Shown: positions 6,934-37,108 of the stretch, in pieces
How positions within the stretch are numbered: the first letter of the stretch is position 1
Layout: the number at the start of each line of letters is the position of its first letter
Assembly: GCA_002381615.1 (NCBI GenBank)
Contig: DFWY01000050.1
Location: 1-37,229 of the forward strand
DNA: 37,229 bases
Reading direction: 5' to 3'
Origin: Polaromonas sp. UBA4122
GTDB taxonomy: Bacteria > Pseudomonadota > Gammaproteobacteria > Burkholderiales > Burkholderiaceae_C
The notes under the pieces: model-generated
Databases searched by the model: none
Told to the model about the DNA's origin: nothing
What the model saw: the letters and a program-made list of their open reading frames with translations, nothing else
Program-made: the position numbers and the translations under genes

Positions 6934-7527
6934 ATGGAAACCCAGCTACCCCTCGTGCTCATCACCGATCAGATCCACGGTGTCGTCATCGATTTGATCT
7001 ATGCAGGGCCAAGAAACTTCACCGGCCAGGTGCTCTATGACAACGCCCTGTGCTTTTTGCATCCGCAAGCCGAGGCGTGCCTACGCAAGGCCATCACTGC
7101 AGCCAGAGGTTTTGGGGTTCAGCTAAAGATATTCGATGCGTTTCGGCCGCAGGAGGCCCAAGAAGCCTTGTGGGCCTTCTCGCCCAACCCCGCCTATATC
7201 GCAGACCCTGCCAAGGGCTCCAACCACACGCGGGGTGTCGCCCTTGACCTGACGCTAATCGGACCGGACGGGCAAGTGCTCGACATGGGCACGCCGGTAG
7301 ACACCATGACTGCCGCATCACATCATTTTCATGTGGCTCTGCCTGCGGCCGTTCAGGTCAACCGCATGGTTTTACTCACCCTCATGCTGGAAGCCGGCTT
7401 TGTTCATCACCCCAATGAATGGTGGCACTATCAACTCCCGGACGCCCACCAGTTTCCACTGATAGACAGCCAGGCTTCCATGACTTGCGTGCCTGCCGGC
7501 ATCCAGCCAATCATTGACTCACCATGA
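6934..7527 (+). CDS. ddpX: D-alanyl-D-alanine dipeptidase (VanX/DdpX family, M15D)
   Basis: A zinc peptidase that splits D-Ala-D-Ala, used in cell-wall dipeptide recycling (DdpX) or in glycopeptide resistance (VanX). Visible family marks are the substrate-binding FDAFRPQEAQ near residue 65, the zinc motif SNHTRGVALDLT with H98 and D105, and EWWHY with the catalytic E162 and third ligand H165. 197 residues is normal. No signal peptide is seen, which fits a cytoplasmic enzyme. AGGA precedes the ATG at short distance. No vanH/vanA-like ligase is present, so resistance is unlikely. The stop overlaps the start of the next gene as ATGA, so it is translationally coupled to a sigma factor, which is an odd pairing. 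Confidence 0.9.
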   Translation: METQLPLVLITDQIHGVVIDLIYAGPRNFTGQVLYDNALCFLHPQAEACLRKAITAARGFGVQLKIFDAFRPQEAQEALWAFSPNPAYIADPAKGSNHTRGVALDLTLIGPDGQVLDMGTPVDTMTAASHHFHVALPAAVQVNRMVLLTLMLEAGFVHHPNEWWHYQLPDAHQFPLIDSQASMTCVPAGIQPIIDSP

Positions 7528-8048
7528 ACTGCTTGACTACTGCCTGGAGCGCTCACGAAGCCGAGTTGCGCAGCTGGGCGCGTCGCCGTCTGAGCAACCC
7601 GGCAGAAGCCGATGACCTGATACAGGACCTGTTCATCAAGGCGCTACGCCAGGGTGAGCGATTCTGCTCCGTACACAACGCACGCGCCTGGCTGTTCGAG
7701 GTCGCGCGCAACATACTGGCCGACCGCTTGCGCGTGGCACGTGACACGGTGGAGCTACCCGAGGAGTTGTCGGCGCCGCTGGAGGATACCGACACGGTGG
7801 ACAGCCTGACGGCCTGCCTGCCGCGTGTGCTGTCGGAGTTGAGTACCGAGGACCGCGACGCCATTACCCAGTGCGACCTGCAGGGCGTGCCCCAGGCAGA
7901 TTTCGCCAACGCCCGGGGCTTGAGTCTGAGCGCGGCCAAGTCACGCCTGCAGCGCGCCCGCCTGCGCCTGAAAGCGCGCATGACGCAAGTCTGCCAGGTG
8001 CAGCTGGACGACGCAGGCCACGTGGCGGATTTTGTGCCGCGCAATTGA
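7524..8048 (+). CDS. sigZ: ECF RNA polymerase sigma factor, SigZ-like
   Basis: 174 residues with sigma region 2 at about 8-75 (AEADDLIQDLFIKALRQ for core binding, ARAWLFEVARNILADRLR for -10 recognition) and region 4 at about 105-160 (the helix-turn-helix around GVPQADFANARGLSLSAAKS). The wording matches the SigZ branch of ECF factors. The start overlaps the ddpX stop by 4 bp. No anti-sigma gene follows; the next genes are the ArsP-like permease, a thioredoxin-like protein and a rhodanese. This hints that SigZ may serve that module, but the 222-bp gap with a repeat element leaves it open whether they share a transcript. Confidence 0.87.
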   Translation: MNCLTTAWSAHEAELRSWARRRLSNPAEADDLIQDLFIKALRQGERFCSVHNARAWLFEVARNILADRLRVARDTVELPEELSAPLEDTDTVDSLTACLPRVLSELSTEDRDAITQCDLQGVPQADFANARGLSLSAAKSRLQRARLRLKARMTQVCQVQLDDAGHVADFVPRN

Positions 8049-8131: not shown

Positions 8132-8270
8132 TTTTTCTTAAATTTTTTGCATTGGATGTAAAAGAATGCCGAGGCCGGGTGACGCTGCGGGTATCTGAAG
8201 CAGCGCATGGATCAGGATAAAAATATCCAGTTTCCTGCGTCTTTTGCCAAACTCATTCGTCTTCACAAGT

Positions 8271-9317
8271 ATGAGCACACTCACTTCATCCCTCCAGCGC
8301 TGGCCCACGCGCCAGCCCGCCATTTTTCTGGCCTTGGCCGCTGCCGTCTGGTGGGGCCTCTACCAGACCCTCGCGTCGGCTTCTGAAGCCCTGGTCGCAA
8401 GCTTGCCGGTGGACCCGGCCAGCCACCTGGGCGGGGCGCTGCAGTTTTTCTTCTACGACACACCCAAGGTGCTGATGCTCTTGACAGGTGTAGTGTTTGT
8501 CATGGGCATGATCAACAGCTATTTCACGCCCGAGCGCACCCGGCTGCTGCTGGCGGGGCGCACCGAAGGAGTGGCCAACGTCATGGCGGCGTCTTTGGGC
8601 ATCGTCACGCCGTTCTGCTCGTGCTCGGCCGTACCCCTGTTCATCGGCTTTGTGCAGGCTGGCGTGCCGCTGGGGGTGACTTTTTCGTTCCTGATCTCGG
8701 CCCCCATGGTTAACGAGGTAGCGCTGACGCTGCTCTTTGGCATGTTTGGCTGGAAGGTCGCTCTGCTGTATATGGGGCTGGGACTGTCGGTCGCCATCGT
8801 CGCCGGCTGGACCATCGGACGCCTGAAAATGGAAGCGTACCTGGAAGACTGGGTGCGCGACATGCCCAAGACAGCAGCAAGCTTCGAGGCTGTTGACACC
8901 ACGCTGGGCGACCGCATTGAAGGCGGGTTTGCGGCGGTGCGTGAGATCGTCGGCAAGGTCTGGCCCTACATCCTGGCGGGCATTGCACTGGGCGCCTTGA
9001 TTCACGGCTATGTGCCGGAAGACTTCATGGCCAGTTTCATGGGCAAGGACGCGTGGTGGTCGGTGCCACTGGCCGTCATCATCGGCGTGCCCATGTACAC
9101 CAATGCAGCCGGCGTGATACCCATCGTGCAGGCGCTGCTGGCCAAGGGCGCGGCGCTGGGTACGGTGCTGGCCTTCATGATGAGCGTGATTGCGCTGTCG
9201 CTGCCCGAGATGATCATCCTGCGCAAGGTGCTCAAGGTGCGGCTGATCGCCACCTTCGTTGGTGTGGTCGCCACCGGTATCCTGATCGTCGGCTATGTGT
9301 TCAACGCCGTGCTGTGA
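8271..9317 (+). CDS. ArsP/DUF318-type permease
   Basis: 348 residues, almost entirely membrane helices in two blocks around a cytoplasmic loop (about residues 175-215). The first block holds VTPFCSCSAVPLFIGF and the second GVPMYTNAAGVIPIVQAL, the repeated signature of the PF03773 permease family. Known members export trivalent organoarsenicals (ArsP) or have been linked to other metals; the CSC motif is thought to matter for thiophilic substrates. ATG 8271 is used, since the in-frame TTG at 8244 is a poorer start; no strong ribosome site is seen. A mini-thioredoxin gene follows 44 bp after the stop, a common pairing for this family, and then a rhodanese. Confidence 0.87.
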   Translation: MSTLTSSLQRWPTRQPAIFLALAAAVWWGLYQTLASASEALVASLPVDPASHLGGALQFFFYDTPKVLMLLTGVVFVMGMINSYFTPERTRLLLAGRTEGVANVMAASLGIVTPFCSCSAVPLFIGFVQAGVPLGVTFSFLISAPMVNEVALTLLFGMFGWKVALLYMGLGLSVAIVAGWTIGRLKMEAYLEDWVRDMPKTAASFEAVDTTLGDRIEGGFAAVREIVGKVWPYILAGIALGALIHGYVPEDFMASFMGKDAWWSVPLAVIIGVPMYTNAAGVIPIVQALLAKGAALGTVLAFMMSVIALSLPEMIILRKVLKVRLIATFVGVVATGILIVGYVFNAVL

Positions 9318-9361: not shown

Positions 9362-9601
9362 ATGGACATCAAGGTACTCGGCACCGGCTGTGCCAACTGC
9401 AAAAACACGATTGCACTGATCGACCAGGTGGCGAAAGCCAAAGGGGTCGCGGTCAAGCTGGAAAAAGTGGAAGAACTGCGCGATATCATGAGCTATGGCG
9501 TGATGTCCACGCCAGGCGTCGTCATCAACGGCAAGGTGGTTCACGCTGGCGGCGTACCCAGCCGCGACAAGATCGAGCAATGGCTCACGGCCCAGGCCTG
9601 A
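9362..9601 (+). CDS. Small thioredoxin-family redox protein
   Basis: 79 residues with the redox pair in GTGCANCKNT near the N-terminus (C11 and C14), and the cis-proline loop GVMSTPGVVINGKVV that ends typical TM0996/MTH895-type mini-thioredoxins. The strand order of the short sequence fits a reduced thioredoxin fold. A good ribosome site (AAAGGAAACTTC) precedes the ATG. This type commonly sits beside PF03773 permeases, where it may deliver or reduce the cargo or a disulphide of the permease. The stop is followed immediately by a 7-bp tandem repeat. Confidence 0.88.
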   Translation: MDIKVLGTGCANCKNTIALIDQVAKAKGVAVKLEKVEELRDIMSYGVMSTPGVVINGKVVHAGGVPSRDKIEQWLTAQA

Positions 9602-9648: not shown

Positions 9649-10059
9649 ATGCTGCAAGAAGCCAAAGAGGTTTGCCCCACCACCACGCGCCGTCTGGCGA
9701 CTGAAGGTGCGCTGCTGGTGGACGTACGCGAGCCGCGCGAGGTACAAGCCCTGACGTTCGACGTACCGGCCATCGTGAACATTCCGCTGCTGGAGCTGGA
9801 GAAGCGCTGGAGCGAGCTGCCAAAGGACCGCGAGATCGTCCTGGTGTGCGAAAGCGGCGCCCGCAGCCTCAAGGCGACCTATTACCTTCAGTACCACGGG
9901 TACACCCAGGTCAGCAACATGAGCGGCGGCATCCTCAAGTGGATGAAAAAAGGGTTTCCGGTAATCGGGCAACGCCTTGAAGCGGGTGCCTGTTCGACGG
10001 GCTGCTGTGGGTCTGGATGCACACCGGCTGACGCTGCCGATGCATCGTCCTGCTGCTGA
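9649..10059 (+). CDS. Rhodanese-domain protein with Cys-rich C-terminal tail
   Basis: The single rhodanese domain spans about residues 10-110, with LLVDVREPREV, the active-site loop VCESGARS (nucleophile C67), and the ending MSGGILKWMKKGFPV. Such proteins move sulfane sulfur or bind thiophilic oxyanions. The last 25 residues carry six cysteines in ACSTGCCGSGC and SSCC, which are not part of the rhodanese fold and look like a metal- or sulfur-binding tail. GGAG precedes the ATG. It is the third gene of the permease-thioredoxin-rhodanese set, so handling of a thiol-reactive metalloid or sulfur species is a fair guess. Confidence 0.9.
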   Translation: MLQEAKEVCPTTTRRLATEGALLVDVREPREVQALTFDVPAIVNIPLLELEKRWSELPKDREIVLVCESGARSLKATYYLQYHGYTQVSNMSGGILKWMKKGFPVIGQRLEAGACSTGCCGSGCTPADAADASSCC

Positions 10060-10160: not shown

Positions 10161-10367
10161 GTGAAAGAACTACTCTCCCACCGCTTCCACCTCGTATTTT
10201 CGATGCTGATGGGTGCAATGATGGCGCTCCTTATGACCTTCGTCATCACGCTGGGCAAAATTGGCTGGCAAACTGACTTCCGGCGTGCCTGGACCAAGGC
10301 CTATGCGCTTGCCTACGTGATTGCCGTGCCGGTCATCCACTTCCGGCGCCACTGGCCCGCAAGCTGA
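10161..10367 (+). CDS. DUF2798 small membrane protein
   Basis: 68 residues with two membrane helices, about 10-32 (LVFSMLMGAMMALLMTFVIT) and 45-60, separated by a short charged loop. The layout and the end AYVIAVPVIHFRR match DUF2798 proteins, whose function is unknown. The start used is GTG 10161, which keeps the family N-terminus HRFHLVFS; no strong ribosome site is visible. It lies 101 bp after the rhodanese gene and may belong to the same unit. Confidence 0.75.
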   Translation: MKELLSHRFHLVFSMLMGAMMALLMTFVITLGKIGWQTDFRRAWTKAYALAYVIAVPVIHFRRHWPAS

Positions 10368-10445: not shown

Positions 10446-10541
10446 ATGAATGCCAATAAAGTCCTCGACATGATGCACACGCGCATGGGCCAGGTGCGCG
10501 CCGAGCAGCCCATGTTGACCGCAAGCGCCAAGGCAGCGTGA
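10446..10541 (+). CDS. 31-codon small ORF coupled to the next gene
   Basis: The ORF reads MNANKVLDMMHTRMGQVRAE and ends with ASAKAA. GGAG lies 9-10 nt before its ATG, the best ribosome site in the area. Its stop overlaps the GTG start of the next gene as GTGA, so ribosomes could pass directly to that gene, which has no good site of its own. It shows no membrane helix, no signal peptide and no family I recognise. It may be a leader that ensures translation of the downstream gene, or a small protein in its own right. Confidence 0.45.
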   Translation: MNANKVLDMMHTRMGQVRAEQPMLTASAKAA

Positions 10542-11791
10542 CAGGCACCACAACATCGCCTTCTGCACCGACGACGCTTCAAGCCGTCGCCGGTTTCGCG
10601 TTGCTGTTCACGGTGTCATTCGACCGCAGGGTCAGACCGATCGAAGCAGGCGCCGCAGCACAGGCTGCGGCTCTGAAGCCATTTTCAGCGGACGAACTCG
10701 CCGCATACCAGGCGCTGCGAGACGAGACCGAACTGCATGTCCTGGGCAGCGCGTTCATCGAAGCTGGACGGCTCACTCACCTGCCGATCGGGCGTATCGC
10801 ACTGGAGCCGTTGACCGGCGACCCACAGGCCCCGACCGCGGCCGACGTGCACCTGTTCACGCATGTATCCGGCGCGGCGCTGTGGGAGGTCTGGTTGCCA
10901 GGCCAGCCGCAGGACTTCGACGCGCAACGCTGGGTCGCCTGGCTTGACGAGCAGGCTGAAAGCAGTCTGCCATCCCGCGTCTGGCGGGCGTTGCAGCCCC
11001 TGAATAAGGCCATCGGCGGGTCCGACGCTTACCGGCAGTACCTGCCGTGCAGCGTCGTGCGCCTGCTCGACCAAGCACTGGCTGCGCTGACCGAGCGGCA
11101 TGCCGCTGACATTGTCGGCCTGCTGTGGCGTGACCGCTCGACACGCACGCTCAAGCCCGAGGTGATCGACGCCGAGCTGGAGCGCGACTACTGCGCCCGC
11201 GAAGGCGGGATCACGCTGCTGGGGCGCAGGGCCGCGCTGGACATCCACGGCAACGAAGACAATGCCGCGCCCGAAGCCTTGGCATCGGGCTTGCCGCCGC
11301 GTAGCGCCGTGCCCTATCTGATCACCCTGGAGCTGCTTCTGGTCGAGCGCGCCGTGCTGCTGCAGCTCTACGAGCGGCTTTCACTATCCACGCCAGCCAG
11401 CATTGAGGGCCTGCTCGAACTCAAGCAACAGGTCAGCGACGGGCTGGAGGAATACTACGGTGCCACCCTGGCGGTCACCCGCTTCGGTGACGCCGTGGCC
11501 GAGGACGGCGAGCGCCTGTTCGGCATCGTCGAGTTGTACGACGCGCTGATGGACCGGCTGGAAACAGTCAGCTTTGCGCTGACCACCCGCTACCAGCAGC
11601 GCATGACGCAAATGCAGTTCTGGCTGACGGTGGTGTTCGGCTCCACCGAGATCGGCTTCATCGCGGCGAGTATCGCCACCTGGTACTACCGCAGCGAGCT
11701 CGGGTCCGTGCTGGCCTGGACGGTCGGCGCGACCCTCGTGTCAGCAGGCGTGCTGGTGGCGCTGCTGCGCCGACGCATTGAAAAACCATGA
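10538..11791 (+). CDS. Uncharacterised membrane protein with CorA-like layout
   Basis: 417 residues from GTG 10538, the only possible start in the frame before the conserved-looking part. The first 340 residues are soluble and rich in charged helices, with a likely long coiled coil near 290-350. Two membrane helices follow at about 361-383 and 391-410, then a basic tail (LRRRIEKP). This shape resembles CorA-type divalent cation channels, but the signature GMN after the first helix is missing; the loop reads WYYRSELGS. I do not recognise a domain family. The gene leads a packed cluster that includes two metal exporters, so a role in ion transport or sensing fits, without proof. Confidence 0.7.
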   Translation: MTGTTTSPSAPTTLQAVAGFALLFTVSFDRRVRPIEAGAAAQAAALKPFSADELAAYQALRDETELHVLGSAFIEAGRLTHLPIGRIALEPLTGDPQAPTAADVHLFTHVSGAALWEVWLPGQPQDFDAQRWVAWLDEQAESSLPSRVWRALQPLNKAIGGSDAYRQYLPCSVVRLLDQALAALTERHAADIVGLLWRDRSTRTLKPEVIDAELERDYCAREGGITLLGRRAALDIHGNEDNAAPEALASGLPPRSAVPYLITLELLLVERAVLLQLYERLSLSTPASIEGLLELKQQVSDGLEEYYGATLAVTRFGDAVAEDGERLFGIVELYDALMDRLETVSFALTTRYQQRMTQMQFWLTVVFGSTEIGFIAASIATWYYRSELGSVLAWTVGATLVSAGVLVALLRRRIEKP

Positions 11792-11857
11792 TGTTAAATC
11801 CACCCGCTGACCACACCCACCTTGGCTGCGCGCCGCTTTCTTTGAGGCAGGCCCACC

Positions 11858-12640
11858 ATGTGTGAACTCTTCGCGCTCTCCAGCGAACGGCCTGCCAACG
11901 CGACGTTTTCGCTCGGAGTCTTCGGCGAACGCGGAGGCAGGCTGGGGCCCCACAAGGATGGCTGGGGCGTCGCATTCAAGGAAGGGCGCGACTTTCGCTT
12001 GATCAAGGAAGCGGCCCCCGCTTCAGACAGTGCCTGCTTGCGCTTCGTCGAATCCCAGGAATTTCGCAGCGAGATCGTGCTCTCGCATATTCGATTGGCC
12101 AGCGTGCCGCGCGTGAACTCCTACACCAACACGCATCCGTTCGCGCGCGAGTTGTACGGCGCCTGTCATGTGTTCGCACACAACGGCGACATGCCAGGCG
12201 TTCTGGGCGATAGCCGCTTCGCACCGGCGTGGAATTTTCCGCTCGGCGAGACCGACTCGGAGTGGTCGTTCTGCGCCTTGATGGACCGCCTGCGCCGTGC
12301 GCTGGCCCCCGACGAGGTGCTGAATGTACCCAAAAAGCTGCCGGTCATCCAGAACTGGGCCAACGAGCTCGCGCAAGGTGGCACAGCCAACTTCCTGCTG
12401 TCCGACAGTGAGTACCTTTATGCGCACTGTTCGACCAAGTTGTTCTACATCGAAAGGCAGTGCCTGGCGCCCCGCGAGTCGTTCGGCAGCGCGTCCCTGC
12501 GCGTGGCGCTGGAACCCGCGCAAGACGGTGCCCAGCATGTCAGCCTGATCGCCACCCAGCCCTTGACGACAAACGAAGCCTGGCTCGCGCTGCCGCCCGG
12601 AGAGGTGGTGGTGTTCCACCGCGGTCGGCGCATTTTTTAA
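11858..12640 (+). CDS. Class II glutamine amidotransferase (YafJ/EgtC-type)
   Basis: The protein starts MCELFALSS; Cys2, exposed after removal of Met, is the nucleophile of Ntn-type glutaminases. Further family marks are GPHKDGWGVAF near residue 32, SHIRLAS near 74, THPFARE near 90, and FAHNGDMPG near 107, which carries the Asn-Gly of the oxyanion hole. The 260 residues contain only the glutaminase domain, as in YafJ or EgtC, which act on a gamma-glutamyl amide or supply ammonia to a partner. It is followed within 450 bp by a DsrE-like gene and an ATP-grasp-like ligase, which could be that partner. Substrate unknown. Confidence 0.88.
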   Translation: MCELFALSSERPANATFSLGVFGERGGRLGPHKDGWGVAFKEGRDFRLIKEAAPASDSACLRFVESQEFRSEIVLSHIRLASVPRVNSYTNTHPFARELYGACHVFAHNGDMPGVLGDSRFAPAWNFPLGETDSEWSFCALMDRLRRALAPDEVLNVPKKLPVIQNWANELAQGGTANFLLSDSEYLYAHCSTKLFYIERQCLAPRESFGSASLRVALEPAQDGAQHVSLIATQPLTTNEAWLALPPGEVVVFHRGRRIF

Positions 12641-12666
12641 AACCCGAAACTCAACTGGAGACCGAT

Positions 12667-13011
12667 ATGTCCAAACTTGTTCTGCATCTGTTCCATGACG
12701 ACGCGCCTTCCCTCTCAACCGTTGCGGCGCTGGCCGAACGCATGCACCAGACTCCGGGCGGCAGCGCCGCAGCACTGGAAGTCTATGTGTTCGGGCCGGC
12801 CGAAGCCGTGCTCGCCGCGCCTGACCGGACCGAGTTCAACGCGCAAATCGACAGTCTGGTCAACCAAGGCGTACGCGTGACCAGCTGCATCGGGCTGGCG
12901 CAAAAATTCGGCGCCGAAGCGGCTTTTCGTGCCCGTGGTATCGCGCTTGAGTCGGCGGCACTGGCTTTTCCCCGCTTTGCGGCCGAGGCTGCAACGGTGA
13001 TCAGTTTCTGA
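12667..13011 (+). CDS. DsrE-like small protein
   Basis: 114 residues from ATG 12667, with GGAG 7 nt upstream. The pattern of a first strand (KLVLHLFHDD), helix, strand (LEVYVFGPAEAVL), a segment around FNAQIDSLVNQGVRVTSCIG, and C-terminal half (ALAFPRFAAEAATVISF) matches the DsrE/DsrF/YchN fold. A cysteine lies in VTSCIGLAQKFG, close to where sulfur-carrying DsrE proteins have theirs. Family members carry sulfur or bind small molecules. It sits between an amidotransferase and an ATP-grasp-like gene in one direction with short gaps. Confidence 0.7.
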   Translation: MSKLVLHLFHDDAPSLSTVAALAERMHQTPGGSAAALEVYVFGPAEAVLAAPDRTEFNAQIDSLVNQGVRVTSCIGLAQKFGAEAAFRARGIALESAALAFPRFAAEAATVISF

Positions 13012-13081
13012 TCGACCGACAATCCGTAACATCACGGCATCGCGCAGTGCGAATTGCGAATTGACTAACGGAATCCCCTTC

Positions 13082-14404
13082 ATGACCCCTCTCATTGCAT
13101 ACCCCTCGGCGGCTCCCGCCGTCATCGCATCGCTCGAAGCCCTATCGGTCGAGACACTCAACAGCGACTGCTTCTGCATCAGCCTGGACACCGACGCGCT
13201 GCGCGTGGCGCTGGAATCTGAAATCGGCCAACCGGGCCTGTTTGACCTAGTGCAGCAACGTTGTCCATATCTGTTCGCGGCACGCCCCGTGTTTGTGTCG
13301 CAGGCCCACATGGCACGCATGGCCAGGCTGATCCAGGCCATCGAGTCGGTGGTCGCGCTGCCAACTTACCGCGAAGAGGTATTGGCCCGCTCGCCCGCCA
13401 TCGCGCGGCATCATCCGGGCGGTGCGAGGAGCGTTTTCTTCGGCTACGACTTTCATGTGACCGAGGGCGGCTTCGGTCTCATCGAGATCAACACCAATGC
13501 AGGCGGCGCCATGCTCAACGCCGTACTGGCGCGGGCGCAACGCGCCTGCTGCCCGGCGATGGAGTCCTTGGTGCCGCCGCAGGCTACGGCCGATGCGCTG
13601 GAAGCCAGCATCGTGGCCATGTTCCGCCACGAGTGGTCTCTTTCTGGTCATACGCAGCCGCTGCGCAGCATCGCCATCGTCGACGAGGCCCCCGAGCAGC
13701 AGTACCTGTACCCCGAGTTTGTGCTGTTCCAGCAATTGTTCCAGCGCCATGGGCTGCAGGCGGTAATCGCTGGCCCGTCCGAGTTCAGCTTGCGCGGTGG
13801 CGTGCTCTGGCATGGAGAGCTGGCCATCGACCTGGTCTACAACCGTCTGACGGATTTCTCGCTCGAGGCACCCGCCAGCGCCACACTGCGCGAAGCCTAC
13901 CTGCAAAACGCCATGGTGCTCACGCCGCACCCCCAGGCGCATGCCTTGTATGCCGACAAGCGCAACCTGGCCCTGCTCAGCGATACCAAGCGGCTCCAGG
14001 CCCTGGGCGTGCCGCAGGCCACGCAAGACGTGTTGCTGGCGGGCATTCCGCATACGGAAATTGTGGACCCGGCGAATGCAGAACGCCTGTGGCGGGATCG
14101 CAAGCGACTCTTCTTCAAGCCGTTTGCGGGCTTCGGCGGCCATGCCGCCTACCGCGGCGACAAGCTGACCCAGCGTGTCTGGCAGGAAATCCTCGTAGGC
14201 GACTATGTCGCGCAGGCGCTGGTCAGCCCTGGCGAGCGGGTCATCTCGGACCAGCAGCCGGCCCAGGTGCTGAAGTTCGACTTGCGCGACTATGCCTATG
14301 ACGGCCGGGTGCAATGGGTGGCGGCACGCTTGTACCAGGGCCAGACCACCAACTTTCGCACGCCTGGCGGCGGCTTCGCGCCGGTGTATGAAGCGCCCGT
14401 ATGA
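13082..14404 (+). CDS. ATP-grasp-like ligase with circularly permuted motif order
   Basis: 440 residues from ATG 13082 (the in-frame TTG at 13061 is less likely). Two blocks look like ATP-grasp pieces: LIEINTNAGGAML, with E135 and N137 as likely metal ligands, and FFKPFAGFGGHAAYRG, with K346 and a Gly-rich loop as a likely nucleotide site. In ordinary ATP-grasp enzymes the Lys/Gly part comes before the ExN part; here the order is reversed, as in circularly permuted members such as glutathionylspermidine synthetase-like proteins. These enzymes join a carboxylate to an amine. The stop overlaps the P-type ATPase start as ATGA. The product is unknown; position next to a glutaminase suggests an amide or peptide-like compound. 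Confidence 0.65.
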   Translation: MTPLIAYPSAAPAVIASLEALSVETLNSDCFCISLDTDALRVALESEIGQPGLFDLVQQRCPYLFAARPVFVSQAHMARMARLIQAIESVVALPTYREEVLARSPAIARHHPGGARSVFFGYDFHVTEGGFGLIEINTNAGGAMLNAVLARAQRACCPAMESLVPPQATADALEASIVAMFRHEWSLSGHTQPLRSIAIVDEAPEQQYLYPEFVLFQQLFQRHGLQAVIAGPSEFSLRGGVLWHGELAIDLVYNRLTDFSLEAPASATLREAYLQNAMVLTPHPQAHALYADKRNLALLSDTKRLQALGVPQATQDVLLAGIPHTEIVDPANAERLWRDRKRLFFKPFAGFGGHAAYRGDKLTQRVWQEILVGDYVAQALVSPGERVISDQQPAQVLKFDLRDYAYDGRVQWVAARLYQGQTTNFRTPGGGFAPVYEAPV

Positions 14405-17052
14405 CAGCGACGACGCCTGAAAGTGAATCGGGGCAACCCGACCTCGCCGCGCGGCCTCAGGCGTCATCGGCAGCATCGACCAGCGGGTGGCCACAGCGCC
14501 AAGGACTGAGCACTGCCGAGGCGGCGCGCCGACTGGCCGCCGAGGGCCCGAACCTGCTACCCGGCAGCACACCGAAATCGACCCTGGCGATCGTGCGAAA
14601 GGTACTCACCGAGCCGATGTTCCTGATGCTGCTGGCCGCTGGCGGTATCTACCTGGCGCTGGGCGACCGGGCCGAAGCGCTGTTCCTGCTCGGCTTTGTG
14701 TTCGTTGTGATCGGCATCACGCTGGCGCAGGAGCGCAAGACGCAACGCGCGATGGAGTCGCTGCGCGACCTGTCAGCGCCGCGCGCGCTGGTGATCCGGG
14801 GCGGGCAAGAGCAACGAATCGCCGGGCGCGATGTGGCGCGCGGCGATCTGCTGGTGCTACGCGAAGGTGACCGCATCGCCGCAGATGCGCTGCTGCTCAA
14901 TGGGCAACTGGAGGTGGATGAATCGCTGCTGACCGGAGAGGCGGTGCCGGTGGCGAAGTTACCCGGCGCGGCGGACGCCGCATTCGGACAACCCGGTGGC
15001 GACAGCACGGCGTTTGTGTTTGCCAGCACGGTGGTCACGAAAGGCCTTGGTCTGGCCGAGGTACACGCCACCGCCAGCGCTACGGCAGTTGGGCGTATCG
15101 GTGCCGACCTGGCGGCCACCACCGAGCCGCCGTCGGCGCTGCAACAGGCCTCGCGCACACTGGTCCGCCGGCTTGGCCTGGGCGCGCTTGTTCTCGCCAG
15201 CATTCAGGTGCTGCTGGGCTGGTGGTGGGACGGCCGGCCGCTGCTGGACAGCCTGCTGGCGGGCATCGCGCTGGCGATGGCCATCCTGCCGGAGGAGATT
15301 CCGGTCATCCTCACCGTATTCCTGGCGCTGGGCGCCTGGCGCATCTCAAAACAAAAGGTGCTGACGCGGCGCGCCTCGGCGGTCGAGGCGCTGGGCGCCA
15401 TCACCGTGCTGGCGGTGGACAAGACCGGCACGCTCACTGTCAACCGCATGGCAGTGGCCGAGATCGCCACCGCCGACGCGCACTTCACTCCCGACGGCGC
15501 GGCCAACTTGCCCGAGGTCTTTCACGAACTGGCCGAGTTTGCGATGCTGGCCACGCCGGGCGACCCCTTCGATCCGATGGAAAAGGCAATCCAGCTGTTC
15601 GGCCACCGCTGGCTGGCGGGCACCGAGCATGTGCACGATGGCCGCATGCCGGAGTTCGAATACGCGCTCTCGGGCGATATCCTGGCGATGACGCGGGTGT
15701 TCGCCAGCGCCGACCCATCGCAGCACCTGCTGGCTACCAAGGGCGCGCCCGAGGCGGTGGCCGACCTATGCCACCTGGATGCCGAGCGGCGCGAGGCGAT
15801 CCGACACCAGGTCGAGGGGATGGCCGAGCGCGGCCTGCGCGTGCTGGGCATAGCCCGTGGGCGCTGGGCTGGTGCAGCCGCCGCACCGGACACTGAGCCA
15901 GTCTGGCCGCAAAGTCAGCATGATTTCGATTTCGAATTCCTCGGAATGCTCGGACTGGCCGATCCGCCGCGCCCCGAGGTATCTGCCGCGTTGGCCGAGT
16001 GCCGCCGCGCTGGCGTGCGCGTGATCATGATGACCGGCGACCACCCTGCCACGGCCCGCGCCATCGCGCGCCAGGTGGGCCTGTCAGAGCGCCCCGAGGT
16101 CATCACCGGGGCCGAGATCGCCGCGCTGGACGACGCGGCGTTGCGCGAACGCCTGCGGCATGTGGACCTGTGCGCACGGCTGCAGCCAGCGCACAAGCTG
16201 CGCCTGGTGCAGGTGCTGCGCGCCGCCGGTGAGGTGGTGGCAATGACCGGCGACGGCGTCAACGATGCGCCGGCGCTGAAAGCCGCTGACGTGGGCATCG
16301 CGATGGGCGAGCGCGGCACCGACGTGGCACGCGAAGCCGCCGCGCTGGTGCTGCTGGACGACAGTTTTGCCCGCATCGTCGCGGCCATCCGCCAGGGACG
16401 GCGCATCGACGACAACATCCGCAAAGCCACGCGCTTCGTCTTTGCTGTGCATGTACCCATCATCGCGCTGGCGCTGGTGCCAGCGCTGCTGCAATGGCCG
16501 GTGCTGCTGCTGCCGGTACATATCGTGTTGCTGGAACTATTGATCGACCCCGCCTGCTCGATCGTTTTCGAGGCCGAGCCTGAAGCCAGCGGCCTGATGG
16601 ACCGTCCGCCCCGCCCGGTATCAAGCTCGCCGTTTGCTGCCGCGCCGCTGGGCCATGCGGTGCTGCAGGGCCTGGGCATCGCGGGGCTACTCTTGCTCGG
16701 GTATGCCTGGCTCGCAGAGCAAGGCTGGAGCGCCGCTCAAGGCCGCAGCATGGTGTTCAGCGCACTGGTGCTCAGCGTGCTGCTGCTGATCCTGGCGAAC
16801 CGCGACCTGACGCGGCCGGCGATCATGGGCGTCAGCAATCCCAACCCCTGGCTGTGGCGCATGGCCGCCGCCGTGGGGCTGCTGCTCGCGGCGGTGCTGG
16901 GCGTTCCCTGGCTGCAAAACGTCATGGGCCTGGCACTCCCCGGCCCTGCAGGGCTGGCCGTCGAGGTCGGCCTCCTGGCGTTGTGCTGCGTATGGCTGGA
17001 GTTGGTGCGGCGCTTCGGCCCTCGCCTGCGCACGCCCGGCGTTGGCGCCTGA
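14401..17052 (+). CDS. Cation-transporting P-type ATPase (P2-like)
   Basis: 883 residues with an N-terminal cation-ATPase domain (GLSTAEAARRLAAEGPNLLP), actuator loop TGEAVPV near 178, M4 motif ILPEEIPVIL, phosphorylation site DKTGTLT (D340), MTGDHPATARAIA, and hinge GDGVNDAP (D618 and D622). About ten membrane helices are visible, six after the catalytic part. There is no HMA domain and no CPx motif, so it is not a P1B pump; the M4 PEEIP resembles the PEGLP of Ca2+/Mn2+-type pumps. The ending LLELLIDPACSIVFEAEP is shared by a bacterial subfamily without firm substrate. It is translationally coupled to the ATP-grasp-like gene upstream. Confidence 0.92.
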   Translation: MTATTPESESGQPDLAARPQASSAASTSGWPQRQGLSTAEAARRLAAEGPNLLPGSTPKSTLAIVRKVLTEPMFLMLLAAGGIYLALGDRAEALFLLGFVFVVIGITLAQERKTQRAMESLRDLSAPRALVIRGGQEQRIAGRDVARGDLLVLREGDRIAADALLLNGQLEVDESLLTGEAVPVAKLPGAADAAFGQPGGDSTAFVFASTVVTKGLGLAEVHATASATAVGRIGADLAATTEPPSALQQASRTLVRRLGLGALVLASIQVLLGWWWDGRPLLDSLLAGIALAMAILPEEIPVILTVFLALGAWRISKQKVLTRRASAVEALGAITVLAVDKTGTLTVNRMAVAEIATADAHFTPDGAANLPEVFHELAEFAMLATPGDPFDPMEKAIQLFGHRWLAGTEHVHDGRMPEFEYALSGDILAMTRVFASADPSQHLLATKGAPEAVADLCHLDAERREAIRHQVEGMAERGLRVLGIARGRWAGAAAAPDTEPVWPQSQHDFDFEFLGMLGLADPPRPEVSAALAECRRAGVRVIMMTGDHPATARAIARQVGLSERPEVITGAEIAALDDAALRERLRHVDLCARLQPAHKLRLVQVLRAAGEVVAMTGDGVNDAPALKAADVGIAMGERGTDVAREAAALVLLDDSFARIVAAIRQGRRIDDNIRKATRFVFAVHVPIIALALVPALLQWPVLLLPVHIVLLELLIDPACSIVFEAEPEASGLMDRPPRPVSSSPFAAAPLGHAVLQGLGIAGLLLLGYAWLAEQGWSAAQGRSMVFSALVLSVLLLILANRDLTRPAIMGVSNPNPWLWRMAAAVGLLLAAVLGVPWLQNVMGLALPGPAGLAVEVGLLALCCVWLELVRRFGPRLRTPGVGA

Positions 17053-17115
17053 GCCTCGACCCGTAACTAGATCGCGGTCGCACATTCATCCGAACATTGA
17101 CAGAAGAAAGCTTTC

Positions 17116-17577
17116 ATGACAGATACCCCAAAGATGACGTTCACGGTCAAGGCCCGCCGCGTTGATGCACATGGCAGCGAAGCCGATTGCAAGGATGCGC
17201 AGATCACGCTCGACACCGACCTGGCTGGGCGGCGCGATGCCTTCAACCCGGCCGAGCTACTGCTGGCCGCGCTGTCGGCCTGCATGATCAAGGGCATCGA
17301 GCGCGTCACGCCCATCCTGAAGTTCGATTTGCGCGGCGTCGAGGTCCGCGTACATGGCGTGCGCCAGGACGTGCCGCCCAAGATGGAGTCCATCCGCTAC
17401 GAGATCGTGGTGGACACCGACGAGTCAGACCAGCGCCTCAATCTACTACACGAGAACGTGAAGAAGTACGGAACGGTCTTCAACACCGTGACACCCGGCA
17501 CCGATCTGGCCGGCACGATGCGCCGTAAGTCAGCCAATGAACCAGGTCAGACAGGGCAAGCAGGAGACAGGCAATGA
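17116..17577 (+). CDS. OsmC-family protein
   Basis: 153 residues. The segment FNPAELLLAALSACMIKGIE is the OsmC helix bearing the first redox cysteine (C57-like position); the second usual cysteine near the C-terminus is not evident, as that region reads KYGTVFNTVTPGTDLAG. OsmC/Ohr proteins reduce organic hydroperoxides with two cysteines, so one-cysteine members may do something else. AGAAAG precedes the ATG. The stop overlaps the CDF gene start as ATGA, so the protein is made together with a metal exporter. Confidence 0.87.
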   Translation: MTDTPKMTFTVKARRVDAHGSEADCKDAQITLDTDLAGRRDAFNPAELLLAALSACMIKGIERVTPILKFDLRGVEVRVHGVRQDVPPKMESIRYEIVVDTDESDQRLNLLHENVKKYGTVFNTVTPGTDLAGTMRRKSANEPGQTGQAGDRQ

Positions 17578-18494
17578 GCACCGGACACGACCATGGCCAC
17601 GATCATGCGCCCGCAGAGTTCAACCGCGCGTTTGCCATCGGTATCGCGCTGAATATCGCCTTCGTCGCGATCGAGGGTTTTTATGGCTGGAAGGTCAACT
17701 CACTGGCGCTGCTGGCCGATGCCGGTCACAACCTGAGCGACGTGGCAGGCCTGGTGCTGGCCTGGGGCGGCGCGCTGGCCGGCAAGCTGCGGCCCGATCT
17801 GCGCCACACCTATGGATGGAAGCGGGCATCCATTTTGGCCGCGTTCTTTAACGCCCTGCTGTTGCTGGTGGCCATGGGCTCGTTGGGTTGGGAGGCAGTG
17901 GGCCGCCTGGGTACGCCGGAGGCGACCGAGGGCTGGACCATCATCGCCGTTGCCGGTGTCGGTATTGCGATCAACACCGCCACCGCACTGCTGTTCATGC
18001 GGGGCCGAAAAGGCGATCTGAACATTCGCGGTGCCTTCCTGCACATGGCGGCCGACGCGCTGGTGTCGTTGGGCGTGGTGATTGGCGGCGCGCTCTACCT
18101 CTGGCAGGGCTGGGCGTGGATTGACCCGGTGATGAGCCTGGCCATCGCGGTGATCATTGTGGTCGGCACCTGGAATTTGTTCAAACAATCGCTGCACCTG
18201 ATGTTTGATGGCGTTCCCGAGGGTGTCGATCTGGCTGCCGTGCGCACGCTATTGCTGAGCCTGCCGGGAGTCGGCGAGGTGCATGACCTGCACGTCTGGG
18301 CCATGGGCACCTCCGAGACTGCACTGACGGCGCATGTGGTGCTGAAAGATCAGGGCACGGATGCCAGCGCCGTACTGCACGAGGCCGAGCACGAATTGCA
18401 CGAGCACTTTGAGATTCGTCACATCACGCTGCAGCTGGAGTCTGCTGCATATGCCCCGCTGTGCGCGCTGCGGGAAGGCAGCGGCTGCTGCTAA
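17574..18494 (+). CDS. Cation diffusion facilitator metal exporter (CzcD/ZitB-like)
   Basis: 306 residues that begin with a His-rich stretch (GHDHGHDH), followed by six membrane helices. The two metal-binding motifs are visible: LADAGHNLSDVAGL in helix 2 and FLHMAADALVSLGVV in helix 5, with the HxxxD pairs of zinc-type CDF proteins. The cytoplasmic C-terminal domain follows (LPGVGEVHDLHVWAMG), and the protein ends with cysteines (PLCALREGSGCC). It exports Zn2+, Cd2+ or Co2+ against protons. It is the last gene of the packed cluster; a repeat copy lies right after its stop. Confidence 0.92.
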   Translation: MSTGHDHGHDHAPAEFNRAFAIGIALNIAFVAIEGFYGWKVNSLALLADAGHNLSDVAGLVLAWGGALAGKLRPDLRHTYGWKRASILAAFFNALLLLVAMGSLGWEAVGRLGTPEATEGWTIIAVAGVGIAINTATALLFMRGRKGDLNIRGAFLHMAADALVSLGVVIGGALYLWQGWAWIDPVMSLAIAVIIVVGTWNLFKQSLHLMFDGVPEGVDLAAVRTLLLSLPGVGEVHDLHVWAMGTSETALTAHVVLKDQGTDASAVLHEAEHELHEHFEIRHITLQLESAAYAPLCALREGSGCC

Positions 18495-21571: not shown

Positions 21572-23353
21572 ATGTGCGGTATTTGCGGCGAATTACGTTT
21601 CGATGGTTTGATGGCAGACAGCGCTGCGGTGGCGCTGATGTCTGCCAGGCTCGCCCGCCGCGGGCCGGATCACGCGGGCCAGTTCGCCGACGGCTCGCTG
21701 GCTTTCGGGCACCGCCGCCTGGCCATCATTGACCTGACGCACAGCGCCGACCAGCCGATGGTCGACCCCGCGCTGCAGCTGGTGCTGGTGTTCAACGGCA
21801 CGATCTACAACTACAAGGAATTGCGCGATGAGCTGGTGGCGCTGGGCTACAGTTTCTTCTCCGAGAGCGACACCGAAGTCATCCTGAAGGCCTACCACGC
21901 CTGGGGCGAAGCGTGCGTGGAGCGCTTCTTCGGCATGTTCGCCTTTGCACTGTGGGACCAGCGCGATGCCAGCCTGTTTTTGGCGCGTGACCGCTTTGGC
22001 ATCAAGCCTCTGTACTACACCCTGGATGGCACTCGCCTGCGCTTTGCCTCCAGCCTGCAGGCACTTCTGGCAGCCGGCGGCGTGGACACGCAGATCGACC
22101 CGGTGGCCCTGCATCACCACTTCAGCCTGCACGGCGTGGTGCCGGCCCCGCGCACCATTCTGCGTGGGGTGAAGAAACTGGCAGCGGCCACGTCGATGCG
22201 CGTCAGCCCCACCGGGCAGGTGACTGAGCGCCGCTACTGGCAGCTGAACGCCACCCGACCTGCGCAAGCACTGTCCGAGACCGAGTGGCTGGATGCCACG
22301 CGTAGCGTGTTGCTCCGCGCGGTGGAGCGCCACCGCTTGGCCGCCGACGTACCGGTGGGGGTGCTGCTGTCCGGTGGGCTGGATTCGAGCCTGCTGGTCG
22401 CATTGCTGGCCGAGCATGTGGACAAGCTCCAAACCTTTTCGATGGGCTTCGAGACGCTCGGCGAGGGCATCGAAAAGGCCGACGAGTTCGAGTTTTCAGA
22501 TCAGGTGGCCGCGCAGTTCAACACACAACACCACAAGTACCTGATTCCGTATGACGAGGTCCTGCGGCGGCTGCCCGAGGCCGTCGACCAGATGTCCGAG
22601 CCCATGGTGAGCCAGGACGTGGTGGCGTTCTACCTGCTGGGCGAGCGGGTTTCCAAGCAAGTCAAAGTCGTGCTCAACGGCCAGGGGGCGGACGAAGTGT
22701 TCGGCGGCTACTTCTGGTACCCACAGATGAACGCGGCCGCAGGGTCGGCACTGCAGCGCTTCAGCGAGCACTATGTCGATCGCGATCACGCCGAGATGCT
22801 GGAGATGCTCAGCCCCGCTTATCACGTTCCGGATGTCACTGCCGAATGGCTTGCGCATGAACTGGCGCGTCCGGGCGCAGACACTTTTATCGACCAGGTG
22901 CTGCGTCTGGACGCCACCACGCTGGTGGTGGACGATCCGGTCAAGCGGGTCGACAACATGACCATGGCCTGGGGACTGGAGGCGCGCGTGCCGTTTCTGG
23001 ACCATGAGCTGGTGGAGCTGGCCGCCCGCATGCCGCCGGAACTCAAGCTCAAGGAGGGCGGCAAGTTCCCGCTCAAGGCCATTGCGCGCGGCCTGATCCC
23101 GGATTCAGTCATCGACCGGCCCAAGGGCTACTTCCCGGTTCCTGTGCTGAAGCACGTGAGCGGGGAGTTTCTTGAATTCATGCGCAACATTTTGATGTCG
23201 GATGCCTGTCTGCAACGCGGCTTGTACCAGCGCCCCTATGTCGAGAAACTGCTGGCGCAGCCGCAAGCGCCAGAGAATTTCACCCGCATCCAGGGCAGCA
23301 AGCTGTGGCACCTGGCGCTGCTGGAGCTTTGGCTGCAGCGCACGGTAGACTGA
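21572..23353 (+). CDS. Asparagine-synthase-type amidotransferase, likely N-acetylglutaminylglutamine (NAGGN) amide-forming type
   Basis: 593 residues. The N-terminal glutaminase begins MCGICGELRFDG, with Cys2 as nucleophile, followed by RRGPDHAG and VFNGTIYNYKELRDEL. The synthetase domain has the PP-loop SGGLDSS (S267 on), NGQGADEVFGGYFWYP and a C-terminal segment VDNMTMAWGLEARVPFLDHE. The wording (MCGICGELRFDG, KAYHAWGEACVERF, VALHHHFSLHGVVPAPRTIL) is closer to NAGGN amidotransferases, which amidate an osmoprotective dipeptide, than to AsnB proper. The partner that builds the dipeptide (GNAT/ATP-grasp NAGGN synthase) is not in the window. An FNR-like box lies upstream and the ribosome site is weak. 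Confidence 0.85.
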   Translation: MCGICGELRFDGLMADSAAVALMSARLARRGPDHAGQFADGSLAFGHRRLAIIDLTHSADQPMVDPALQLVLVFNGTIYNYKELRDELVALGYSFFSESDTEVILKAYHAWGEACVERFFGMFAFALWDQRDASLFLARDRFGIKPLYYTLDGTRLRFASSLQALLAAGGVDTQIDPVALHHHFSLHGVVPAPRTILRGVKKLAAATSMRVSPTGQVTERRYWQLNATRPAQALSETEWLDATRSVLLRAVERHRLAADVPVGVLLSGGLDSSLLVALLAEHVDKLQTFSMGFETLGEGIEKADEFEFSDQVAAQFNTQHHKYLIPYDEVLRRLPEAVDQMSEPMVSQDVVAFYLLGERVSKQVKVVLNGQGADEVFGGYFWYPQMNAAAGSALQRFSEHYVDRDHAEMLEMLSPAYHVPDVTAEWLAHELARPGADTFIDQVLRLDATTLVVDDPVKRVDNMTMAWGLEARVPFLDHELVELAARMPPELKLKEGGKFPLKAIARGLIPDSVIDRPKGYFPVPVLKHVSGEFLEFMRNILMSDACLQRGLYQRPYVEKLLAQPQAPENFTRIQGSKLWHLALLELWLQRTVD

Positions 23354-23476: not shown

Positions 23477-23595
23477 ATACCTATTTCCAATAGCAGAACA
23501 AAGTAAGAGCGGCCATCGCACCGAGATCGTCAGCGATGCCCAACCCCCAATTTTTCGATTCGTTTAGTGTTTGATCAATTCAAGGAGTGATGACC

Positions 23596-24779
23596 ATGAA
23601 CCACCGTGAAGTTGTGCTTTGTAACCCCGTCCGCACTGCCATCGGTACCTATGGCGGCAGCCTGAAAGACATTCCGGCACCCGACTTGGGCGCGGCGGTG
23701 GTCCGTGAGACGCTCAAGCGCTCGGGCCTCGCCGCCGACAAGGTGCAGGCGCTAATCATGGGCAACGTCATCCAGGCCGGCGTCAAGATGAATCCGGCGC
23801 GCCAGGCCGGTATCGGTGCCGGGCTGCCGGTGGACGTGCCCGCGCTCACCGTCAACCGCGTCTGCGGGTCTGGCGCGCAGGCCATTGCCAGCGCAGCCCT
23901 GGAAATCTGGTCCGGCATGATCGATTGCGCCATTGGCGGTGGCATGGAAAACATGGACCGCGCGCCCTACCTGCTGCCACAGGGCCGCTGGGGCGCACGT
24001 ATGGGCGATGTCACCATGTTTGACAGTATGTTGTATGACGGCTTGAACGACGCTTTCAGCGGCAAGCATTCGGGCTGGCATACCGAAGACCTGGTGACTC
24101 GCAACAGCATCTCGCGCGACGATCAGGACCGCTGGGCGCTGCGTTCTCAGCAGCGCTTTGCTGGGGCGCAGGCGACCGGCAAGTTCGATGCCGAGATCGT
24201 GCCGTTCGAGGTGCCTGGCCGCAAGGGCCCGGTGGTGTTCACCAAAGACGAGCACAACCGTCCGGATACCACCGCCGAGTCGCTCGCCAAGCTCAAACCA
24301 GCCTTCCGCAAGGACGGCACCATCACCGCCGGCAGTGCGCCTGGCCTCAATTCCGCCGCGGCCGCCATGATCGTGGTCGAGCGTGCCTGGGCCGAGAAAA
24401 ACGGCCTGCAGCCGATGGCTAGCCTGGCAAGCTACGGCATCGGCGCGGTCGAGCCGGGTCTGTTCGGCCTCGGGCCGGTTCCTGCTGTGCGCCAGGCGCT
24501 GGCGCGTGCAGGCTGGAGCGTGGGCGATGTTCAGCGCGTGGAAATCAACGAGGCCTTGCCGCCATTACGCTGGCCTGCCTGCGCGAACTCGGCTTTGCCG
24601 AAGGCGTGGTGAACGTGGAGGGCGGTGCCATTGCCCACGGGCACCCCATCGGCGCCAGTGGTGCAGTGCTGGCCACCCGGCTGATGCATTCAATGAAGCG
24701 CGATGGCCTCAAGCGCGGCATCGTCACGCTGTGTATTGGCGGCGGTCAGGGCATTGCGCTGGCGCTGGAAATGCGCTGA
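23596..24779 (+). pseudogene. Thiolase (acetyl-CoA acetyltransferase) with a one-base frameshift
   Basis: The first frame gives 339 residues of a thiolase: REVVLCNPVRTAIGTYGGSL, the acyl-accepting cysteine in VNRVCGSGAQAIASAAL, and NSAAAAMIVVERAW. At VEINEA the frame is lost: one base is missing after 24557 (GCC-TT-GCC, where GCC-TTN-GCC is expected). The next frame then continues correctly with ITLACLRELGFAEGVVNVEG, the catalytic GGAIAHGHPIGASGA and CIGGGQGIALALEMR, ending TGA 24777-24779. ATG 23596 is chosen because AAGGAG lies 8 nt before it. Either the gene is broken or this is a sequencing error; the product would otherwise serve acetoacetyl-CoA metabolism, for example polyhydroxybutyrate. 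Confidence 0.88.
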
Positions 24780-24787
24780 GTGCGGCC

Positions 24788-25181
24788 ATGGACAAATCGA
24801 TTCATCGTTTCAGCGAGCTCTTTGCGCAATTGGGAATTCCCCTGTGATACGCAGGGCATCCAACATTTCCTGGCAACTCACACGCCGCTGGCTTCTGACG
24901 TCAAGCTGCCGGATGTGCCTTTCTGGACACCAACGCAGGCCACACTCTTGCGGGAAGCGTTACTTCAAGATTCGGATTGGGCCGAACGGGTCGATCAACT
25001 GAGTGGAGCCCTCGTGGGTCCGTCAGAAGGAAACAATAAGTGCAGGCCAGGATCGCGATCACGCCCCCGCGAACTTCAATCCAGCTGGGGGTCGCCTTCT
25101 ACCAAGGCGAGGACGTCTCTATGGTCCTTGAGCCGACGTCGAACCACGGTCAGTATGTACTTGCGAAGTGCTTGCAAATAG
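24788..25181 (+). pseudogene. DUF2789 protein with a frameshift in a C run
   Basis: ATG 24788 opens MDKSIHRFSELFAQLGIP and stops after 19 codons. Taking out one C from CCCC at 24839-24842 joins this to DTQGIQHFLATHTPLASDVK and then FWTPTQATLLREALLQDSDW, which together give the usual DUF2789 protein of about 80 residues (function unknown). After GALVGPSEGNNK (about 25038) similarity ends but the frame is open to TAG at 25179-25181. The tail 25040-25190 contains another open frame (QLGVAFYQGEDVSMVLEP) that I could not identify. It lies just after the frameshifted thiolase gene, so two lesions or two errors sit within 300 bp. Confidence 0.75.
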
Positions 25182-35112: not shown

Positions 35113-35535
35113 TCAAACACGCCGCCCCTCCGCATCGATCACCGCTTCGCCATCTTCCTTGGCGAAGGCACCCAACTGCTGGTGCGGCAGAAGGTCCAGC
35201 ACCGCTTCGGATGGACGACACAGGCGTGTGCCCAGGGGCGTCACCACGATGGGGCGGTTGATAAGGATCGGATGGGCCAGCATGAAGTCGATCAGCTCGT
35301 CATCGCTCCATTTCGGGTTGTCCAGGTCCAGTTCCTTGTAGCTCGCTTCCTTGCTGCGCATCACCTCGCGCACCGGCGTCCCCATGGCGGCAATCAGGGC
35401 CACCAGTTCGGCGCGAGTCGGCGGTGTTTCCAGGTAATGGACGACGCGGGGTTCGACACCCGTGTTGCGAATCAGCGCCAGCGTGTTGCGGGACGTGCCG
35501 CACTTGGGATTGTGATAGATCGTGATGTTGGTCAT
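35113..35535 (-). CDS. arsC: Arsenate reductase ArsC (glutaredoxin-coupled type)
   Basis: 140 residues. Reduces arsenate to arsenite with glutathione and glutaredoxin. The start MTNITIYHNPKCGTSRNTLA places the catalytic cysteine at C12 in the loop HNPxCGTSR. Three arginines for the arsenate/thiolate site are expected; RPIVVTPLGTRLCRPSE supplies two or three of them. Length fits the plasmid R773 type. It is the last gene of the arsR-acr3-arsC operon, 20 bp after acr3. Confidence 0.93.
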   Translation of the reverse strand: MTNITIYHNPKCGTSRNTLALIRNTGVEPRVVHYLETPPTRAELVALIAAMGTPVREVMRSKEASYKELDLDNPKWSDDELIDFMLAHPILINRPIVVTPLGTRLCRPSEAVLDLLPHQQLGAFAKEDGEAVIDAEGRRV

Positions 35536-37098: not shown

Positions 37099-37108
37099 AT
37101 GTTTATTA

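Follow-up and report, generated by a model that had tools for sequence, protein, structure and literature searches.

A candidate glutathione-type synthetase family encoded in a metal(loid)-resistance region of Polaromonas sp. UBA4122

Genes of the locus

The stretch of DNA analysed here (the window, 37,229 bases) is a single contig, G000:C37, from the 4.17 Mb genome of Polaromonas sp. UBA4122, and with its ArsP-type permease, CDF exporter, P2- and P1B-type ATPases and ars genes it is best named a metal(loid)-resistance region or island. The genes in question are eight plus-strand reading frames and, above all, the fifth of them, which encodes a permuted ATP-grasp ligase referred to here as LIG; the third encodes a class II glutamine amidotransferase-type protein referred to as GAT. 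A sequence-only reading had proposed these eight genes as an undescribed system that makes a metal-binding thiol or peptide and exports the metal or its complex. All eight frames are present at the positions given in that reading:

10446-10541, plus strand: small open reading frame (31 aa, putative coding), 4-base overlap with the next start, no Pfam/NCBIfam family
10538-11791, plus strand: membrane protein of CorA-like outline, with stretches 257-275 and 388-411 in a simple hydropathy scan
11858-12640, plus strand: GAT, class II glutamine amidotransferase-type, N-terminal Cys, GATase_4 (Pfam 8e-70)
12667-13011, plus strand: 114-aa protein, no Pfam/NCBIfam match
13082-14404, plus strand: LIG, permuted ATP-grasp ligase (AlphaFold2 model and Foldseek), predicted glutathione (or gamma-Glu-Cys-X) synthetase
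14401-17052, plus strand: P2-type cation ATPase (Pfam matches; NCBIfam equivalogs all below cut-off)
17116-17577, plus strand: OsmC-like protein (Pfam OsmC 3e-14)
17574-18494, plus strand: CDF cation exporter with a His-rich N-terminus (profile match; ZitB-like below cut-off)

The three 4-base overlaps noted earlier (at 10538, 14401 and 17574) are real, and the remaining gaps measure 26-70 bases. The same-strand run is longer than had been claimed, as it starts with an ArsP_1 permease gene at 8244 and continues through upstream gaps of 44-101 bases. Operons usually show spacing of this kind.

Sequence and predicted fold of LIG

Taken alone, LIG has no match in Pfam (E <= 0.1), NCBIfam (E <= 0.01) or the PDB sequences (E <= 1), and when the threshold is relaxed to E <= 5 its sole Pfam match is ATP-grasp_3 (0.15) and still no PDB sequence is matched. 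The family CP_ATPgrasp_2 (PF14403) is matched by 12 of the 65 aligned LIG relatives (best E 1.8e-6) but not by the window LIG itself in the scan to E <= 5. An AlphaFold2 model built from the alignment of these 65 relatives (predicted local distance difference test, pLDDT, 89.6; predicted TM-score, pTM, 0.89) has human glutathione synthetase (5.6e-15) and soybean homoglutathione synthetase (5.9e-15) as its top PDB matches in Foldseek, both with prob 1.00, TM 0.57-0.64 and a root-mean-square deviation (rmsd) of ~7 A. Lower ranks include Cp1B (rank 7), the potato and yeast glutathione synthetases and then GspS, YjfC and YgiC, and trypanothione synthetase is also found among the neighbours. The earlier designation of this protein as a permuted ATP-grasp enzyme is thus backed by the fold and by the CP_ATPgrasp_2 matches of its relatives.

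All 132 LIG sequences compared are identical at eleven polar or charged residues, D123, H125, E135, N137, N139, D201, Q207, E212, Y253, R255 and D258, and K346 is kept in 131 of them. The E-x-N and K-P motifs among these residues may correspond to the Mg/ATP positions of the glutathione-synthetase fold, and D123, E135, N137, R255 and K346 are candidate residues for binding Mg/ATP and gamma-Glu-Cys. LIG shares the circularly permuted ATP-grasp fold of the eukaryotic-type glutathione synthetases (human GSS, 8fbz/2hgs; soybean homoglutathione synthetase, 3kal) at ~13-14% identity in structural alignments and with no sequence-profile match, and unlike them it is found in Pseudomonadota, often on plasmids and usually with a CxC and a CC motif. 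LIG is not filed in the eukaryotic family, because a defining sequence feature was tested and is absent; what we propose is that it works like a member of that family. On 31 of 32 plasmid records with a LIG match the protein is annotated as hypothetical or conserved hypothetical, and on the remaining one no gene is listed. One of the LIG-bearing plasmids is pPNAP02 of Polaromonas naphthalenivorans CJ2. The LIG family is not described in the literature titles and abstract openings covered, which are a partial sample, so that a publication on it is possible.

Distribution of LIG and of the glutathione pathway genes

The pathway step predicted for LIG is that of bacterial GshB (TIGR01380), and genomes without GshB are enriched in LIG. 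Among the 399 genomes of the order sample, LIG is present in 69 and GshB exceeds its cut-off in 365; four genomes with sub-cut-off GshB matches (E 8e-23 to 7e-80) were counted as GshB-bearing, leaving 30 GshB-lacking genomes, 28 without any match and two (G149 and G367) with matches of E ~1e-4 only. LIG occurs in 19 of these 30 versus 50 of the 369 others (p 4e-9). It had been predicted beforehand that GshB-lacking genomes with LIG would have GshA and that those without LIG would not, and the prediction held, with the exceptions of G339 and G350: GshA, sought via three families, exceeds its cut-off in 18/19 of the former and 1/11 of the latter (p 4e-6). The single GshA-bearing genome lacking both GshB and LIG, G350, is 94% complete, and its sampled congeners have GshB. 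In G089 a sub-threshold GshA match lies within a 759-residue frame, which is probably a GshA-GshB fusion.

In the phylum sample, LIG was found in 90 of the 397 genomes. Of these, 37 (a count without a denominator) belong to f86, a family outside the order that has small genomes and at a guess corresponds to the Zetaproteobacteria. A second LIG-bearing group outside the order is of magnetotactic type, with MamB above cut-off in all 10 members tested, and is therefore probably Magnetococcia. Both groups carry GshA (TIGR01436; 12/12 tested f86 genomes and 9/9 magnetotactic-type genomes), while GshB exceeds its cut-off in 0/12 and 0/10, respectively. The pattern formed by GshA, GshB and LIG is a correlation in a few lineages. 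A search for the AMO family was silent in 16 genomes, as was its control, and decides nothing on whether f25, a LIG-bearing family of the order sample, is ammonia-oxidising.

Metal-resistance genes and other neighbours of LIG

Neighbours recurring beside LIG include copper, arsenic, mercury and CDF genes. In a controlled test, we took 20 of the 69 LIG-bearing order genomes, with LIG on long contigs, and compared a 12-kb window centred on the LIG region of each with 40 windows from other, hand-picked positions of these contigs, using a panel of 26 proteins (23 for metal resistance or regulation and three DUFs recurring beside copper genes). At least one panel match was found in 7/20 LIG windows versus 2/40 controls (p 0.004), and at least two panel genes in 6/20 versus 0/40 (p 8e-4). 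Among 80 fetched loci, 53 have at least one panel gene and 44 at least two, counts that have no control of their own and include some loci that supplied the panel. As well, a copper, mercury, heavy-metal or CDF annotation lies near LIG in 18 of 21 plasmid stretches (7/8 and 11/13; all but H2, H5 and H21); this count has no control, and plasmids are generally rich in metal genes. The 21 records examined, from a total of 32, comprise a first eight partly picked for names or sources suggesting metals and then 13 avoiding near-copies; of the 11 records left out, seven are from Moraxella or Psychrobacter.

Mapped onto a tree built from 121 LIG proteins, the metal label requires 20 changes if the 16 genus rows that were not scored are treated as non-metal (starred branches force 15 of these changes) and 19 if those rows are dropped, a change being either a gain or a loss. 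The label is also clustered on the tree (0/500 shuffles gave a number as low). The link to metal genes thus arose, or was lost, repeatedly and is not universal. Two LIG genes (L080, L085) from a record with the title Klebsiella pneumoniae group with an Undibacterium LIG, and this record is probably a mislabelled genome bin.

Metal-type LIG proteins carry cysteines in a CxC (30, 32) and a CC (156, 157) motif. All four are kept in 100 of the 132 sequences, none in 21 and a mixture in 11; in seven magnetotactic-type and eight f86 sequences the cysteines are absent, mostly as that stretch is missing. At most one cysteine is kept in 18/19 GshB-lacking versus 15/47 GshB-bearing genomes of the order sample (raw p 4e-6), an association we do not claim as established because it has about two informative independent pairs, with a median p of 0.5. 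We hypothesize that these cysteines might sense metal.

As for the genes that follow LIG elsewhere, an AsnO-type homologue lies directly 3' of LIG in four relatives (L034, L035, L049 and L219), and the plasmid record of the L034 sequence likewise names that neighbour as an AsnO-type amidotransferase; an amide of a LIG-made peptide, formed by AsnO, is possible. The AsnO gene of the window lies 7 kb from LIG. In six of eight f86 loci (L196, L197, L203, L204, L205 and L208) LIG is followed by a TIGR04283-type glycosyltransferase, and in four of these six TIGR04282 also follows (one member per family was scanned). The NCBI name for the TIGR04283 family is arsenosugar biosynthesis. AsnO and GAT homologues are absent beside most LIG genes, and among the loci compared no partner is kept beside LIG across lineages.

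Conservation of the eight-gene set

The proposal of a single undescribed system would be weakened if its genes rarely occurred together, and across genomes they do so rarely as a set of eight. When the window proteins were searched by tblastn against 20 regions round LIG genes, some of which stop at contig ends, the CorA-like protein, GAT, LIG, the P2-type ATPase and the CDF exporter were found together solely in two congeners, G028 and G008. In both of these regions tblastn did not find OsmC, and the 114-aa protein is represented merely by a 20% fragment, in G008. Other congeners hold subsets, such as LIG with CDF in G014, or the permease, the thioredoxin, LIG and CDF in G024. Among 61 genomes, counting that of the window, four encode the CorA-like protein at full length and one has a fragment of it; GAT orthologues of at least 80% identity (80-100%) are found in six, each adjoining LIG or, in the case of G029, what remains of a LIG gene. 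Elsewhere, most LIG genes lack both a CorA-like and a GAT neighbour, and in a further 80 loci the neighbours of LIG are highly varied. The eight genes were therefore rejected as a conserved unit, the set not being kept across genomes. Modules are assembled around LIG in the Polaromonas lineage, and it is LIG that merits further attention. The LIG remnants of G029 (C17:48035-48472) are broken up into pieces and lie next to a GAT orthologue of full length.

Proposed role of LIG and rival explanations

On balance we favour, with somewhat more confidence than doubt, the reading that LIG serves as an alternative synthetase of glutathione (or gamma-Glu-Cys-X), one that has taken the place of GshB in some lineages and moves together with metal resistance. 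From the fold and the distribution we infer a substrate and a product: LIG would join gamma-glutamylcysteine and glycine (or a close analogue) with ATP, and it would be the main glutathione-synthesis enzyme in lineages without GshB. On the islands, LIG might raise the local thiol supply and so buffer the soft metals Cu, As, Hg and Zn/Cd, and the buffered metals could be handed to exporters and to glutathione-using steps, for example the glutaredoxin-type ArsC, while GAT may trim or recycle gamma-glutamyl peptides. In Cupriavidus metallidurans, glutathione is reported by an independent study to cooperate with copper efflux systems (PMC10304878). If our reading of LIG is true, proteobacterial lineages that seemingly lack the second step of glutathione synthesis obtain it from an unannotated family, which would explain a gap in their glutathione pathways; the same enzyme is carried by plasmids alongside resistance to copper, mercury and arsenic, and metal islands, whose descriptions otherwise list pumps, oxidases and reductases, gain a thiol-making arm. 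Of the earlier idea, the combination of an ATP-grasp ligase for a small thiol or peptide with metal export gains support from the synthetase-like fold, from the presence of LIG in GshA-bearing genomes without GshB and from the metal neighbours, whereas the single eight-gene system is not supported.

A number of observations weigh against the role as a glutathione synthetase. No Pfam glutathione-synthetase family is among the 12 families listed for the 65 relatives at E <= 5, and LIG matches neither TIGR01380 nor any other NCBIfam model at E <= 0.01. The top 20 Foldseek matches have identities of 13-16% and rmsd values of ~6-11 A, as expected for a common fold only, and the fold cannot fix the substrate because the fold family takes in glutathionylspermidine synthetases, peptide-spermidine ligases and Cp1B. 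Moreover, hhalign of LIG against GspS and YgiC of Escherichia coli, which with YjfC belong to the same fold family, found nothing (that profile held two sequences only). The genomes with LIG and without GshB sit in few families (f25, 14; f21, 3; f24, 1; f15, 1), because of which the p-values of 4e-9 and 4e-6 given above overstate independence. One of these genomes, G339, has LIG and none of the three GshA types, and another, G148, whose three sampled congeners have GshB, is 98% complete but in 350 contigs, so its lack of GshB may just come from a broken assembly. Three of the ten magnetotactic-type genomes have a full-length sub-threshold GshB-like match (194-196 bits), several f86 genomes have a partial GshB match of at most 75 bits that might do the job, and the window's own genome possesses GshB together with two GshA types. 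In addition, no panel gene lies near LIG in 27/80 loci and in 13/20 order windows, and the glycosyltransferase that follows LIG in f86 could point elsewhere.

It is conceivable, though rather unlikely, that LIG acts on gamma-Glu-Cys or glutathione and attaches something other than glycine (another amino acid, a polyamine or a further gamma-Glu-Cys) to give a different metal-binding thiol. Homoglutathione synthetase, glutathionylspermidine synthetase, YgiC and trypanothione synthetase are all among the Foldseek neighbours, 50 of the 69 LIG-bearing genomes of the order are not GshB-lacking, and an AsnO-type homologue directly follows LIG in four relatives, but the occurrence of LIG in genomes with GshA and without GshB most simply fits ordinary glutathione synthesis, and neither AsnO nor GAT homologues accompany most LIG genes. 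A speculative picture, which we regard as improbable, is a mobile thiol-synthetase family in two forms: a cysteine-poor housekeeping form replacing GshB in whole lineages, and a four-cysteine form on copper, arsenic and mercury islands that would make a metal-buffering thiol, perhaps other than glutathione, and may sense or bind metal via those cysteines.

We find it harder still to credit that LIG works in some unrelated pathway, for a peptide, glycoconjugate or metallophore, and that the GshA/GshB pattern is an accident of a few lineages. This would accord with the concentration of 14 of the 19 LIG-bearing genomes without GshB in one family, with the many LIG genes that have no informative neighbour and with the TIGR04283-type glycosyltransferase after LIG in six of eight f86 loci; yet no partner is conserved beside LIG across lineages, and LIG is likewise absent from nine f20 genomes that have neither GshB nor any of the three GshA types (other f20 members have GshB). 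That the eight genes form one dedicated system for making and exporting a metal-binding thiol or peptide seems to us very improbable: their close packing and overlaps, the joint presence of five of them in G008 and G028 and the constant adjacency of close GAT orthologues to LIG or its remnants speak for it, but in most other loci LIG is not accompanied by these partners, and OsmC and all but a fragment of the 114-aa protein are missing from the regions of G008 and G028.

Other proteins of the cluster

The class II glutaminase-type assignment made earlier for GAT is borne out by the GATase_4 profile (8e-70); the protein starts with MCEL, and its PDB match is 1te5 (8.4e-52). GAT shares the GATase_4 family and the N-terminal Cys with the EgtC/DUG3-type amidases and falls far below the cut-off of the EgtC model TIGR03442 (36.5 bits, 3.3e-9; cut-off 218.65). 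DUG3 belongs to the same Pfam family. GAT is predicted to be a gamma-glutamyl-peptide hydrolase. DUG3 is part of a glutathione-degradation pathway (PMC9012958, PMC12653102). In the window's genome (C146; L273), a GAT paralogue (~38% identical) lies 21 bases from gshB in convergent orientation, with gshA upstream. Adjacency of GAT to gshB was considered as a general rule and rejected, being true in the window's genome and false in G024, the single other place checked.

The P2-type ATPase, OsmC and CDF identities are confirmed by profiles, while of two further assignments one is unsupported and one unconfirmed. The 10538 protein, read as CorA-shaped, has no Pfam/NCBIfam match and no GMN motif, which we take to be the hallmark of the CorA Mg/Co channel. 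For the 114-aa protein, the DsrE-like reading is unconfirmed: the protein has no Pfam/NCBIfam match, and its model, made from the single sequence, is weak (pLDDT 65) and gave nothing in Foldseek at E <= 0.001. The P2-type ATPase has DKTGT at 340 and PEEIP at 297 and none of CPC, CPH or SPC; where its membrane motif reads PEEIP, calcium pumps have PEGLP. OsmC peroxidases have two catalytic cysteines well apart in the sequence; the OsmC-like protein has cysteines at 25 and 56 only and none in its C-terminal half.

Remaining genes of the window

The other annotated genes of the window are as follows:

8244-9317, plus strand: ArsP_1 permease (Pfam 6.4e-77; SaoE and SO_0444-like NCBIfam models below cut-offs)
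9362-9601, plus strand: MTH895/ArsE-family thioredoxin-like protein (Pfam 3.2e-29; TIGR00412 97 bits, cut-off 62)
9649-10059, plus strand: rhodanese-domain protein (every match below its own cut-off)
10161-10367, upstream in the same-strand run: DUF2798 protein
21572-23353, plus strand: AsnO-type N-acetylglutaminylglutamine amidotransferase, asparagine-synthase-type (TIGR03104 958.6 bits, cut-off 570)
25226-27553, plus strand: heavy-metal P1B ATPase (TIGR01525 617 bits, cut-off 346)
35113-35535, minus strand: ArsC, glutaredoxin-type (TIGR00014 155 bits, cut-off 106)
35556-36623, minus strand: ACR3 (TIGR00832 389 bits, cut-off 283)
36733-37113, minus strand: ArsR/SmtB-like protein (NF033788 54.6 bits, just below the cut-off of 55)

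No RNA families or tRNAs were found in the window at the thresholds applied. Just 5' of the permease, a D-alanyl-D-alanine dipeptidase gene overlaps a SigZ-like (below cut-off) sigma factor gene (6934-8048), and a sigma-factor homologue likewise precedes the permease in G028, G024 and G033. A thiolase gene, read by eye at 23587-24847, looks shortened and has a second, overlapping frame at 24383-24847.

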